Origin: Natronospirales bacterium
Lineage (GTDB): Bacteria > Pseudomonadota > Gammaproteobacteria > Natronospirales > REEB76
DNA: 64,000 nucleotides
Reading direction: 5' to 3'
Assembly: GCA_021816765.1 (NCBI GenBank)
Contig: JAKAXB010000005.1
Span: forward strand, 62,001-126,000
Below the pieces are notes generated by a model. It was not told where the DNA came from and did no database searches. It saw nothing but the letters and a program-made list of their open reading frames with translations. Shown piece after piece: positions 4,973-29,307 of this stretch (positions are counted from its first letter, which is position 1; each line of letters begins with the position of its first letter). The translations under genes and the position numbers were made by a program.

Positions 4973-5330
4973 GCGATGAATGTCATCGCTCCCACCGGGT
5001 GAATGGATCGGCCCTGTAGAAGCGGTGTTACACACCACGACAAATTGCAATTGCGGAGAATGTCGCCGCTCCCAGCGGGTGAATGGATCGGCCCTGTAGA
5101 AGCGGTGTCATACACCGCGACAAATTGCAATCGCGGAGAATGCCGCCGCTCCCATGGGTTGAATGGATAGGTCTTGTAGGAGCGGTGTCACACACCGCGA
5201 CGGATTTCAGTCACGGCGAATATCGCCATATCTCTCCCGTAGGAGCGGTCGCCTGCCTGTGCGGTGCACGCGACAGATCTCGACCGCGATTCTTTGAAGC
5301 TGTCGCGGCGAAGGTCGCCGCTCCTGCAAT
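4973..5330. repeat. 80-bp tandem repeat plus degenerate palindromic (REP-like) units
   Basis: Three copies with an 80-bp period are seen: GAATGGATCGGCCCTGTAGA begins at 5001 and 5081, and GAATGGATAGGTCTTGTAGG at 5161. Each unit contains a short hairpin (CGGTGT...ACACCG) and outer GGAGCGG/CCGCTCC arms. After about 5213 the repeat degenerates into a further inverted GTAGGAGCGG ... CCGCTCCTGC pair ending near 5330. No gene is seen in this 378-bp interval between pstB and the convergent TPR gene. The core resembles GTAGGAGCGGC-type intergenic repeats of xanthomonads and pseudomonads. Confidence 0.85.
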
Positions 5331-7391: not shown

Positions 7392-7620
7392 CTCGCCCCC
7401 CATCCCGCACTACGTCCACCGCCGTCCCTGGCCAATTGTAATGGACCGGGACAGGCCCGCGCTGCGGTTACCCCGTTATTTCCCGGGAGGTGAGCAGAAA
7501 TCGAGCAGTTTTTGACGTAGAAACTGAGCACCATTCCGCACTGTAATTGCGCGTGACCCACGGTCGTAAAGTCGGCTATTGGGTGGACCGAATCCAAACC
7601 ATGACGAGGGGCGAGCCAGC

Positions 7621-10554
7621 ATGAGAAGCATAAGAACGGGATTGAGATGGGGGGTGAGTGCCGGCGTGCTGGCAATGGCCCTGACGATGACGGCGGTGTC
7701 CGCCGCTTCGGCGCCGAACGGCGCGCGGGGGCTCAGCCGCGCACCCACCGGATTGGTGGCGGCGATGGTGCAGAGCACTGCGCGCGAAGCGGCCCGCGAT
7801 CCCGCCTACCGTATTGATTCCCGCGGCTGCGCACAACTTTCTGTTCAGCGTTTTACCGCCTGTTTTGCCCCGGGTGCGACGCGCTTCCGCACGCCCCACG
7901 TCGCGCTGCAACTACGCCTGGCCGCCTGGGGCCGTCCCGGCCGCCTCACGGCGCTGGCGCTGGCCCCCGGCCGGCCACACGCCAACCGGATCGAGTACCT
8001 GGGCAGCGGCATCCGGGCCTGGTGGCGAGTGCTGCCTTTGGGTTACGAGCAGGGCTTCACGATTACGCGCGCCCCAGCGGGGCGGGGGCCAGTAATAATC
8101 GAACTGCGTGCGAGCCGTGCGCCCGCGATAGCCGGCAACAGTCTTGCTTGGGGACGGCTGCACTATGGCCAGCTCGTGGTGACCGATGCGCGGGGGCGGG
8201 TGCTGCCCGCCACGCTCACGGCCGTCGGCCGCAAGGTAGTCCTGCGCTTCGACGCCGCCCATGCCCGCTATCCGCTCAACGTGGACCCGCTGGTGTGGGT
8301 CGAGCAGGAAGTGACCGCCAGCGATGGCGCGGCCTCGGATATGTTCGGCTACTCGGTTGCCCTCAGCGGTCCCACCGCTCTGGTAGGCGCGCCGCAACAT
8401 CAAGTCGGCGGCAACGCCGACCAAGGCGCGGCTTATATCTATAACAAGATCAACGGCGTCTGGAGCCAGACGGCGGAGCTGACCGCCAGCGATGGCGCGG
8501 CGCGCGACTATTTCGGCAACTCGGTTGCCCTCAACGGCACCACCGCCCTGGCGGGGGCACCGTTCCACCAAGTCGGCAGCAACGGCAGTCAAGGCGCGGC
8601 TTATGTCTATACCGAGACCAATGGCGTCTGGAGCCAGACGGCGGAGCTGACCGCCAGCGATGGCGCGGCCTCGGATGCGTTCGGCTACTCGGTTGCCCTC
8701 ATCGGTCCCACCGCCTTGGTGGGGGCGCCGAACCACAACAGTAAAGTTGGCGCCGCTTATGTATTTACGGGCGGTAGCGGTATCTGGAGCCAGGCGGCGG
8801 AGCTGAGCCTGAGCGGTGTGACGGGGGACATTGAACTTGGCTATTCCGTCGCCCTCATCGGACCCAACACGATCGCGCTGGTGGGGACACCGTTCATCAT
8901 GATCGGCGCCCAGACGGAGCAGGGTGCGGTCTTCGTGTATACCGAACCGGCGGGTGGCTGGACCAGTACCTCGAGTTACACCACTCGACTGACTGCCGGT
9001 GATGGCACGGCGTACGATTGGTTCGGCACGTCGCTCGCCGGCTCCGGTTCCAACGTCTTGGTGGGAGCGCCGCAACATCAAGTCGGCAGCAATATCCAAC
9101 AAGGTGCGGCCTATATCTATACCGATACCAACGGCAGCTGGAGCCAGACGGCGGAGCTGACCGCCAGCGATGGCGCGGCCTCGGATATGTTCGGCTACTC
9201 GGTTGCCCTCGGTCCCAACGCCTTGGTGGGGGCGGTGAACCACCAAGTCGGCAGCAACGGCAGTCAAGGCGCGGCTTATGTCTATACCGAGGCCAATAAT
9301 GGCACCTGGAGTCAGACGGTGGAGCTGACCGCCAGCGATGGCAGGTTGAGCGACCGGTTCGGCATGTCGCTCGCCGGCTCCGGTTCCAACGTCTTGGTGG
9401 GAGCGCCGCAACATCAAGTCGGCAGCAACACCAACCAAGGCGCGGCCTATTTCTTCGGCAATGCCGACCTCGGCCTGGTGCTGAGCACCCCGGCCATGGT
9501 GGCGTCCGGCGCCAACTATACCAGCCAGGCGATCCTCACCAACAACGGCTCGTATACGAGCCCGGCGCTGAGTGTGCTGTTGCCGGTGCCCACCGGCACG
9601 AACTACGTGTCCTCCAGCGCCACCCAGGGGAGCTGCAGCCAGACCGCGGGCACCGTCACCTGCAATCTCGGCAGTCTCGCGGCCAGCGGTGGCAGTGCCA
9701 GCGGCAGCGTCACACTCCAGGCCACCGCGGCGGCGGGTACTGCGCTGGCCAACAGTGCAAATTTGGCTTTGAGCACCCCGGCCCTGAGCCAGACTTCCAC
9801 GACCACGGTGGCCGTGGCGCCGGCCGTCACGGGCCTCGCGAACGCGCGCGTGACCATCGGCCAGAGTGTGCCAGCGGAGAGTTTCACGATCTCCGGCACC
9901 GGCAGTCTCACAGTGACCGCGAGCTCATCGAACACCACGTTGTTGCCGAACGCCGGCTTGAGCATCTCTTCGGGCTGCAATGCCAACGGTGCGAAGTGCA
10001 CGCTTTCTATCACCCCGGCGGCGGGGCAGACGGGCACGGCTACGGTGACCGTGACGGTGACTGATACCAACGGGCAGCAGGGCAGCGGCAGCTTCACCCT
10101 GACGATTAAAGACATACCTGCGACCGCCAACAATGACAGTGTGACCACCACGGCCGGCCAAGCGGTGAGCGGCACGCTCTCGGCGAGCACGGCCTACCAA
10201 GGTCAGACGCTCACCTATCAACTCGTGACGCAGCCGGCCCACGGCACCGCCACGCTCACCAACGCCAGCACCGGTGCGTTCACCTACACGCCAACGGCGG
10301 GATTCTCCGGCAGCGACAGTTTCACGTTCAACGCAAAGGACAGTGCCGGCACGCTCTCCAACACCGCCACCGAAAGCCTCACGGTGAATGCTTTACCATC
10401 GCCTCCGCCCAGCAGTGGGGGTGGGGGAGGCGGTGGCGCACTGGGTCTGTGGAGTCTCGGCTCACTGCTGGCTTTGCTGCGGACGCGCTGGCGGCTTCGG
10501 CCGGGTTCCGATCCGGCGCCGAGGACTGATTCGGCCTGCGGCAGTATGGAGTAG
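7621..10554 (+). CDS. Secreted FG-GAP repeat protein with Ig-like domains and GlyGly-CTERM-like tail
   Basis: A large exported protein (977 residues) with a signal peptide (MRSIRTGLRWGVSAG...TAVSAAS). After about 220 residues come about seven near-identical repeats of the type LTASDGAASDMFGYSVAL...VGAPQHQVGSN...GAAYIY (bases 8300-9470), consistent with a beta-propeller of the FG-GAP/integrin type. A DUF11-like conserved-repeat domain, a further beta-sandwich and a VCBS/cadherin-like domain (NDSVTTTAGQ...PTAGFSGSDSFTF) follow. The C-terminus has a Gly-rich run, a hydrophobic helix (ALGLWSLGSLLALL) and basic residues, the GlyGly-CTERM pattern recognised by rhombosortase. Start 7621 is chosen for GAGGGGCGAG upstream and for the signal peptide; an in-frame ATG at 7579 would bury it. 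Confidence 0.8.
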   Translation: MRSIRTGLRWGVSAGVLAMALTMTAVSAASAPNGARGLSRAPTGLVAAMVQSTAREAARDPAYRIDSRGCAQLSVQRFTACFAPGATRFRTPHVALQLRLAAWGRPGRLTALALAPGRPHANRIEYLGSGIRAWWRVLPLGYEQGFTITRAPAGRGPVIIELRASRAPAIAGNSLAWGRLHYGQLVVTDARGRVLPATLTAVGRKVVLRFDAAHARYPLNVDPLVWVEQEVTASDGAASDMFGYSVALSGPTALVGAPQHQVGGNADQGAAYIYNKINGVWSQTAELTASDGAARDYFGNSVALNGTTALAGAPFHQVGSNGSQGAAYVYTETNGVWSQTAELTASDGAASDAFGYSVALIGPTALVGAPNHNSKVGAAYVFTGGSGIWSQAAELSLSGVTGDIELGYSVALIGPNTIALVGTPFIMIGAQTEQGAVFVYTEPAGGWTSTSSYTTRLTAGDGTAYDWFGTSLAGSGSNVLVGAPQHQVGSNIQQGAAYIYTDTNGSWSQTAELTASDGAASDMFGYSVALGPNALVGAVNHQVGSNGSQGAAYVYTEANNGTWSQTVELTASDGRLSDRFGMSLAGSGSNVLVGAPQHQVGSNTNQGAAYFFGNADLGLVLSTPAMVASGANYTSQAILTNNGSYTSPALSVLLPVPTGTNYVSSSATQGSCSQTAGTVTCNLGSLAASGGSASGSVTLQATAAAGTALANSANLALSTPALSQTSTTTVAVAPAVTGLANARVTIGQSVPAESFTISGTGSLTVTASSSNTTLLPNAGLSISSGCNANGAKCTLSITPAAGQTGTATVTVTVTDTNGQQGSGSFTLTIKDIPATANNDSVTTTAGQAVSGTLSASTAYQGQTLTYQLVTQPAHGTATLTNASTGAFTYTPTAGFSGSDSFTFNAKDSAGTLSNTATESLTVNALPSPPPSSGGGGGGGALGLWSLGSLLALLRTRWRLRPGSDPAPRTDSACGSME
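8300..9470 (+). repeat. Near-identical tandem coding repeats in the FG-GAP gene
   Basis: Blocks such as GCGGAGCTGACCGCCAGCG and GCGCCGCAACATCAAGTCGG recur with a spacing of about 150-200 bp across seven repeat units. Identity at the DNA level is high, so recombination or copy-number change within the gene is likely. The repeat also produces a long antisense open frame that I do not regard as a gene. Confidence 0.8.
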
Positions 10555-28611: not shown

Positions 28612-28739
28612 TTAGCCTACCATAACCTTAGTAGGTCTCAATGGTTGTCTGGGTATATCCACAATGCAGGATAATCGCTGCACGAGTGCGCACGCGCGCT
28701 GGCAGGGGCGGGTGGGCGATGCTAGAATTTCAAGCCTTT

Positions 28740-28812
<73 letters not shown>

Positions 28813-28895
28813 CAACTTTGCAGGCATAATCTTCAGTTGGGTTCTACCCGGCTTTCTTGTTTGCGCCCAGGACCATTGTCTCCATTGTCTAAGGA

Positions 28896-29246
28896 TCCGG
28901 GCCGGCGGGTCTGCCAGGGAGGGCGGCAACCGCCGAGGCAAAGAATTGCGTTTGGCCCCGGTAGCTCAGTGGGGTGAGGGCGGTGATCCCGTGCGAACAC
29001 AGTTCGCATCCGCCCGAACGCCCGGACAGGAAGTCCGGGCAGGCGGGTCTGCCAGGGAGGGCGGCAACCGCCGAGGCAAAGAATTGCGTTTGGCCCCGGT
29101 AGCTCAGTGGGGTGAGGGCGGTGATCCCGTGCGAACACAGTTCGCATCCGCCCGAACGCCCGGACAGGAAGTCCGGGCAGGCGGGTCTGCCAGGGAGGGC
29201 GGCAACCGCCGAGGCAAAGAATTGCGTTTGGCCCCGGTAGCTCAGT
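28896..29246. repeat. 138-bp tandem repeat containing tRNA-Arg 5' fragments
   Basis: GCCCCGGTAGCTCAGT, the first 16 nt of the tRNA-Arg at 29231, also occurs at 28955 and 29093, exactly 138 bp apart. The intervening 122 bp are the same in the two full copies, and about 59 bp of a partial copy precede the first. Each unit holds an 8-bp perfect hairpin (GCCCGGAC-AGGAA-GTCCGGGC), a second (TGCGAAC-ACA-GTTCGCA) nested in GGGCGG/CCGCCC arms, and GGCGG-CAA-CCGCC. The copies cannot fold as tRNAs because the 3' acceptor strand is missing. No gene is supported from 28813 to 29230. Confidence 0.9.
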
Positions 29247-29307
29247 TGGATAGAGCATCCCCCTCCTAAGGGGAAGGTCGGCGGTTCAACTCCGCCCCGG
29301 GGCACCA
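29231..29307 (+). tRNA. tRNA-Arg (CCT)
   Basis: Acceptor GCCCCGG pairs with CCGGGGC; the D arm is TAGCTCAGTTGGATAGAGC; the anticodon stem-loop is TCCCC-CTCCTAA-GGGGA, giving anticodon CCT for AGG arginine; the T arm is GCGGTTCAACTCCGC; CCA is encoded at 29305-29307. It sits at the end of the 138-bp repeat block. Confidence 0.95.

Follow-up and report, generated by a model that had tools for sequence, protein, structure and literature searches.

A tandem repeat carrying the start of a tRNA-Arg gene points to a family of short, probably integrative DNA units at bacterial gene ends

Why should the beginning of a tRNA gene recur, twice and exactly, within the tandem repeat that precedes it? This question is raised by a 64,000-nucleotide stretch of DNA from a Natronospirales bacterium (the window), in which a repeat with a period of 138 bp occupies positions 28896-29246 in 2.5 copies with a 99% match (TRF score 695; a second repeat search agrees). 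Directly 3' of the repeat, ARAGORN places a tRNA-Arg(CCT) gene at 29231-29307, the first 16 nt of which (GCCCCGGTAGCTCAGT) are repeated exactly at 28955-28970 and 29093-29108; carried on to the junction, the match is 18/19. The fold of one 138-bp unit has an energy of -70.8 kcal/mol (z = -3.5 against shuffles). A preliminary description of this DNA had reported two full copies with tRNA-Arg 5' ends, which TRF, ARAGORN and the exact 16-nt recurrences bear out. It also reported a partial copy; the extra repeat material is present, but it corresponds to the 3' half of an earlier unit that has decayed (15.8 bits), of which 28896-28954 aligns at 99% with the later units. The biological unit boundaries within the array are 28974-29111 and 29112-29249, and its features are as follows, where R1 denotes the covariance model of the core that is described below.

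28699-28728: promoter-like site of tRNA-Ala
28740..28813, + strand: tRNA-Ala(CGC), upstream of the array (ARAGORN)
28835-28853: terminator-like hairpin after tRNA-Ala
28838..28954, + strand: decayed oldest unit, with a weak core at 28838-28924 (R1 15.8 bits, E 0.038), the 3' half of P3, P4 at 28913-28924 and the linker at 28925-28954
28955..28973, + strand: truncated copy of the tRNA-Arg(CCT) 5' end (18/19 nt) with GGG at its end, directly before unit 1
28974..29062, + strand: core of unit 1 (R1 match 28971-29062, 93.4 bits, E 1.4e-22, from a model built in part from this copy)
28974-28983 with 29010-29019, + strand: P1 of unit 1, with tandem G.A
28991-28998 with 29002-29009, + strand: P2 of unit 1
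29020-29040, + strand: P3 of unit 1, loop AGGAA
29051-29062, + strand: P4 of unit 1, loop AGGGAG
29063..29092, + strand: linker of unit 1 (GGCAACCGCCGAGGCAAAGAATTGCGTTTG), resembling linkers at other tRNA-Arg genes and not native leaders
29093..29111, + strand: truncated tRNA-Arg 5' end, second copy, closing unit 1
29112..29200, + strand: core of unit 2, with P3 at 29158-29178 and P4 at 29189-29200 (R1 match 29109-29200, 93.4 bits)
29201..29230, + strand: linker of unit 2, the present immediate leader of tRNA-Arg
29231..29307, + strand: intact tRNA-Arg(CCT) (ARAGORN; Rfam tRNA 70.5 bits)

The array probably represents a short, non-autonomous DNA unit of ~138 bp that is integrative (mobile), present here as two fresh copies and a relic. 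The arrangement at 28955..28973, a truncated gene end before a unit, is also found in relatives. That the first 19 nt of the tRNA-Arg gene (29231-29249) are a gene end brought by unit 2 is supported but not proven. The neighboring tRNA-Ala(CGC) at 28740-28813 ends in ...CTCCACAA, its orthologues in genomes G001, G005, G006, and G008 end in ...CTCCACCA, and the encoded CCA seems to have been lost in the window genome. The window holds other repeats as well: an 80-bp tandem repeat at 4978-5227 (3.1 copies) with a REP-like palindrome (TGTAGAAGCGGTGTCACACACCGCGAC), and a degenerate 168-bp tandem repeat at 8312-9454 within a long ORF (7579-10554) that probably encodes a repeat protein.

A blastn search of 56 related genomes with 197 bp of the repeat (window 29034-29230) gave matches in 10, nearly always adjoining tRNA genes, and each copy found in this way starts after a copy of its own neighbor gene's end. 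Because this query contained a piece of tRNA, R1 was built from the ~90-nt core alone. Every one of the 12 genomes searched from genus g1 and its sister genus has R1 matches (1 to 62 copies each); across the class, 52 of 369 genomes, from 47 of 271 genera, have matches at E <= 1e-5. Among the carriers recognized by a pattern scan are Solimonas terrae, Stagnimonas aquatica, and Sinimarinibacterium flocculans, which suggests that the class is Gammaproteobacteria; the pattern-scan matches in Brevibacterium and a Phycisphaerales genome are ordinary hairpins to which R1 gives only 15-17 bits. The unit is therefore present elsewhere, and the absence from all other genomes that would have told against the preliminary description is not seen. 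Its proposal of a repeat family expanding at tRNA genes was right and can be broadened to both ends of tRNA and protein genes in many genera. Single-contig genomes such as G037 and G099 show the same architecture, with seven comparable tandem units at tRNA-Met in G037. In that locus (L147, 777-2238) the seven tandem units precede a single tRNA-Met gene on its 5' side, and its 3' side has two or more good units and a weak one (antisense). Nested units occur in loci L009, L016, and L105, where a second GGA-hairpin module (AGAAGCG..CTTCGAGCGGGCGCACAGGGATGTGCGCCC) lies inside the P3 or the P4 loop of an older unit. Nearest-neighbor units in another genome share their target gene in 28 of 59 cases against 5.5 expected, as expected of target-specific lineages, inherited or homing alike. 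No Rfam family scored above threshold at the window repeat, no DNA similar to the unit was found in phage and plasmid collections, and a literature search with subscription journals mostly outside its scope returned no relevant account of such repeats. The family of ~140-base units is widespread and apparently undescribed.

Structurally, the core of ~90 nt begins with GYGA and is made up of four hairpins, two of which have GGA loops. P1 contains tandem G.A (GY-GA-...-GA-RC), 108 of 117 copies have GGA within the P3 loop, and P4 is a short hairpin with a loop of the same kind, a GGA hairpin being recovered there by a simple scan in 71 of 117. The helices are perfect in 44 of these copies. Across the 117 distinct copies, 95.5% of cells in the 22 modelled pairs are paired and 21 pairs show two-sided changes. 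The covariation score is 0.686, compared with 0.165 for shuffled and 0.04-0.09 for slid alignments, although the alignment was fitted to R1 and is thus biased towards it; RNAalifold run on the unfitted seed alignment gives compensatory change in 19 of 22 pairs. The small structured RNA proposed in the preliminary description is without support, for although the helices covary, the non-Watson-Crick cells of the units comprise 40 G.U and 34 A.C, while tRNA stems at the same loci have 34 G.U and 0 A.C. Near-equal numbers are seen in every decay class of units, and the tolerance of G.U far above A.C that marks a functional structured RNA is not found. Strong covariation without the G.U excess of true RNA makes DNA the likelier substrate, and palindromic DNA that is copied and then decays fits this pattern better than RNA under lasting selection. 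Conservation of the loops on one strand, and of the G.A pairs, suggests that a single folded DNA strand is recognized.

Units of this family are confined to gene ends. Among 64 loci found with R1, a tRNA start lies no more than 90 nt 3' of the unit in 35, nearly always at 13-45 nt; sites that close to tRNA starts cover a fraction of 1% of a genome. The 5' ends of tRNA-Arg (four anticodons), -Lys, -Phe, -Trp, -Met, -Ser, and -Gln are targets, as are the 3' ends of tRNA-Leu, -Gly, -Pro, -Ala, -Thr, and -Arg, with the unit on the opposite strand, and the ends of the protein genes sdhE, xthA, mtnC, hisI, atpC, spoT, and fabF. A processing substrate, as the preliminary description also proposed, is unlikely, as the unit lies on the opposite strand beyond the tRNA 3' end at roughly half of the tRNA targets. 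From the outside towards the gene the order is constant: a truncated gene end that usually stops at GG, the core, the linker, and the intact gene. Orientation to the gene never varies, with the truncated end always outside and the intact gene inside. To score duplication, the sequence that runs up to the core start was compared with the 140 nt past P4 and the best repeat taken; a direct repeat of the target end reaches significance in 77 of 117 copies, with the gene left intact, and GG falls within the last three bases of the duplicated end in 59 of the 77. P4 and the junction are separated by 36-60 nt (median 48) in 51 of the 55 anchored cases, independent of the length of the duplicated gene part, which is 16 to about 42 nt in single units; a long gene part is thus paired with a short linker. 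There is also a second group in which the gene precedes the unit and the GYGA of the unit gives the stop codon (GGG TGA), as in thiS of L094 and rpmJ of L154 (gene names read from translations).

Which of the two gene ends belonged to the host can be approached through occupied and empty sites. The tRNA-Trp site is empty in G002, G003, G004, G008, and G010 and filled in the window genome, G000, and in G005; empty sdhE sites exist in relatives as well. In G005, the leader to the left of the truncated tRNA-Trp copy matches the leader of the empty site in G003 (z 8.8), whereas the linker does not match the leader (z 1.4), though the tRNA part is 30/30. Linkers at tRNA-Arg genes resemble one another across anticodons and species (36 of 45 pairs at p<=0.05), but only 7 of 70 comparisons of these linkers with native leaders show likeness. 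Among protein genes, sdhE of G011 has a truncated start just after sdhB that reads MPEIAQLKWRCRRG and an intact start that reads VSEVPQLRWKCRRG; both here and in atpC of G225 the truncated copy lies at operon distance from the preceding gene. The corresponding pair of gene ends in Stagnimonas mtnC is MTIRAILTDIEG / MIKAIVTDIEG. One atpC unit occurs in both G102 and G225, which are sister genomes, and the native truncated start of G225 is clearly unlike the intact start. A 57/57 match at atpC of G102 was considered as a fresh target-site duplication and dropped, as the native start of the sister species is different and the left copy in G102 probably remains from an earlier unit. Truncated and intact coding ends show 82 differences, of which 22, 12, and 48 fall at codon positions 1, 2, and 3, in ten pairs that are not fully independent; the third-position excess is weaker if the intact copy alone is constrained (p about 0.01 by a rough estimate). 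As the pairs are partly dependent and constraint on the intact copy alone would lower the excess expected at position 3, the codon-position evidence is moderate. Linkers that are alike across genomes and unlike native leaders, together with the third-position differences, suggest that the unit carries its own replacement end. On balance, the sequences favor a replacement gene end (linker plus gene end) that travels with the unit. Against a travelling end, the bases just outside the tRNA in G095 and G323 agree between copies within a genome and differ between genomes, showing signs of gene conversion between both ends. Parts of the unit pattern can be mimicked by gene conversion, by ordinary homologous transfer, or by recombination between direct repeats that lie close together.

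It is possible to picture how such a unit might move. It would consist of the ~90-nt core, its own linker, and a terminal stretch of 17-41 nt matching the end of one particular gene. Integration would occur inside the target gene near its end, usually directly after GG, so that the host's own gene end stays outside as the truncated copy; the unit would supply the replacement, and the target gene would therefore remain intact. Movement may take place by site-specific recombination in trans on the folded DNA strand, with the matching gene end, in the simplest account, providing the shared sequence for recombination. Conserved genes such as tRNAs would then be favored because the same end exists in each new host. 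We tentatively extend this to a minimal homing unit of ~140 bp, with a folded strand read by a host recombinase and a 3' arm that directs the unit and repairs the gene, although the odds are somewhat against so specific a form. The arm would act as an interchangeable address, with lineages for tRNA-Arg, -Leu, and -Phe, sdhE, xthA, and others. XerC/XerD-like tyrosine recombinases are present in all carrier genomes examined, without linkage to the units, and no resident genes linked to units were found beyond these universal Xer recombinases. Reverse transcription and Y1 transposition by resident enzymes are disfavored, as reverse transcriptase (PF00078) is absent in 8 of 12 carriers and Y1 (RAYT) transposase (PF01797) in 5 of 12, one of them rated 100% complete and holding 37 copies. 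The window genome has two Y1-transposase-like matches. Two tyrosine recombinases, G000:C42:13732-14334 and G008:C20:3375-3977, have ~30 extra residues in the catalytic domain and are possibly integron integrases.

The same gene-end pairs could arise by plain transposition, in which the unit is the ~90-nt core only, a long target-site duplication (about 40-57 nt) is made on insertion, and later conversion and selection keep the gene part alike. The nearly constant distance from P4 to the junction is what such a process predicts, tRNA-Lys in L156 matches at 37/39 nt up to P4, and the 6-12 extra matches outside the tRNA in G323 and G095 agree within each genome as under concerted evolution. We nevertheless consider this account unlikely, given that the gene part at tRNA-Trp is identical (32/32 with flank) yet the linker bears no relation to the native leader in either carrier, that different tRNA-Arg genes and species have linkers in common, and that the apparent duplication at atpC of G102 is probably an older remnant. 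Much more remote is a local tandem duplication or assembly artefact without wider meaning: the 99% identity of the two window units and the assembly of the window genome in 47 contigs speak for it, but relatives already contradict it, with the same architecture in many genomes, single-contig ones included.

A different kind of explanation, which we regard as rather improbable, is that the unit acts as a regulatory RNA in the tRNA or mRNA, sequestering CsrA/RsmA via its two GGA-loop hairpins, with the leader freed by tRNA processing. The GGA loop is a CsrA motif (PMC4333381), and P3-P4 resembles Rfam TwoAYGGAY, which has been proposed as a CsrA-binding RNA (PMC4333381). The near-universal GGA in the P3 loop fits this role, and all 5 genomes that were tested have csrA. 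Many units, however, lie antisense beyond tRNA 3' ends and so outside any tRNA leader, which rules out tRNA-leader regulation as a general account; the units also lack the wobble excess seen in tRNA stems, and some array units follow a terminator-like hairpin without a promoter-like site of their own. CsrA binding is possible as a by-product, since csrA is present and the loops fit the motif.

If the reading as an integrative DNA unit is true, much of the Gammaproteobacteria holds dozens of unnoticed units per genome, and these rewrite 17-41 bases at the start or the end of essential genes, tRNA genes among them. The gene-end replacement known from phages and islands would then work in 140 bp without any gene, the source of many truncated tRNA ends would be explained, and an unknown recombination activity would be indicated. 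Pairs of GGA-loop hairpins, read until now as CsrA-binding RNA, would become possible DNA parts of mobile repeats. In carrier genomes the units affect gene-start annotation and the analysis of tRNA fragments.

Among known elements, TwoAYGGAY (RF01731) shares with the unit two adjacent hairpins with A-N-GGA loops, the unit's own loops being AYGGAY-like, and is itself multi-copy, with 14 and 21 matches in two genomes. Membership of that family was rejected, as the window scores 20.1 bits (E 3.8), below the 43-bit threshold. TwoAYGGAY gave no matches in the window genome or in eight further loci carrying the unit; in turn, R1 scores TwoAYGGAY loci at <=19 bits, and these have no tRNA nearby. At L030-L041 (G043, G027, and G069), TwoAYGGAY copies number 14-21 per genome and have long flanking inverted repeats, so that the Rfam "RNA" may be a mobile repeat in its own right. 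In E. coli, tandem repeats that include a piece of tRNA adjoin the tRNA gene at tyrT (rtT RNA). Unit arrays likewise adjoin a tRNA gene and contain a piece of it, but tyrT is a single locus with its repeats downstream of the 3' end, and no Rfam rtT match was found at the window repeat or at further unit loci. REP/BIME and MITE repeats are, like the unit, short, palindromic, dispersed, non-coding, and non-autonomous; unlike them, the unit has a gene-specific arm and would restore a gene end, and a Y1/RAYT transposase is missing from some of its carriers, as noted above. The closest parallel in behavior is with phages, islands, and ICEs, which attach at the ends of tRNA or protein genes and make good the gene end with a copy that they carry, as phage 21 does at icd. 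The unit resembles these integrative elements in lying at gene ends with tRNA genes favored, in leaving a truncated copy, in tandem accretion, and in a probable replacement end that may carry synonymous changes. It differs in being ~140 bp long with a conserved hairpin core and no integrase gene, in using 5' and 3' ends alike, and in reaching many copies per genome, and we place it among the short non-autonomous integrative repeats as a further variant.
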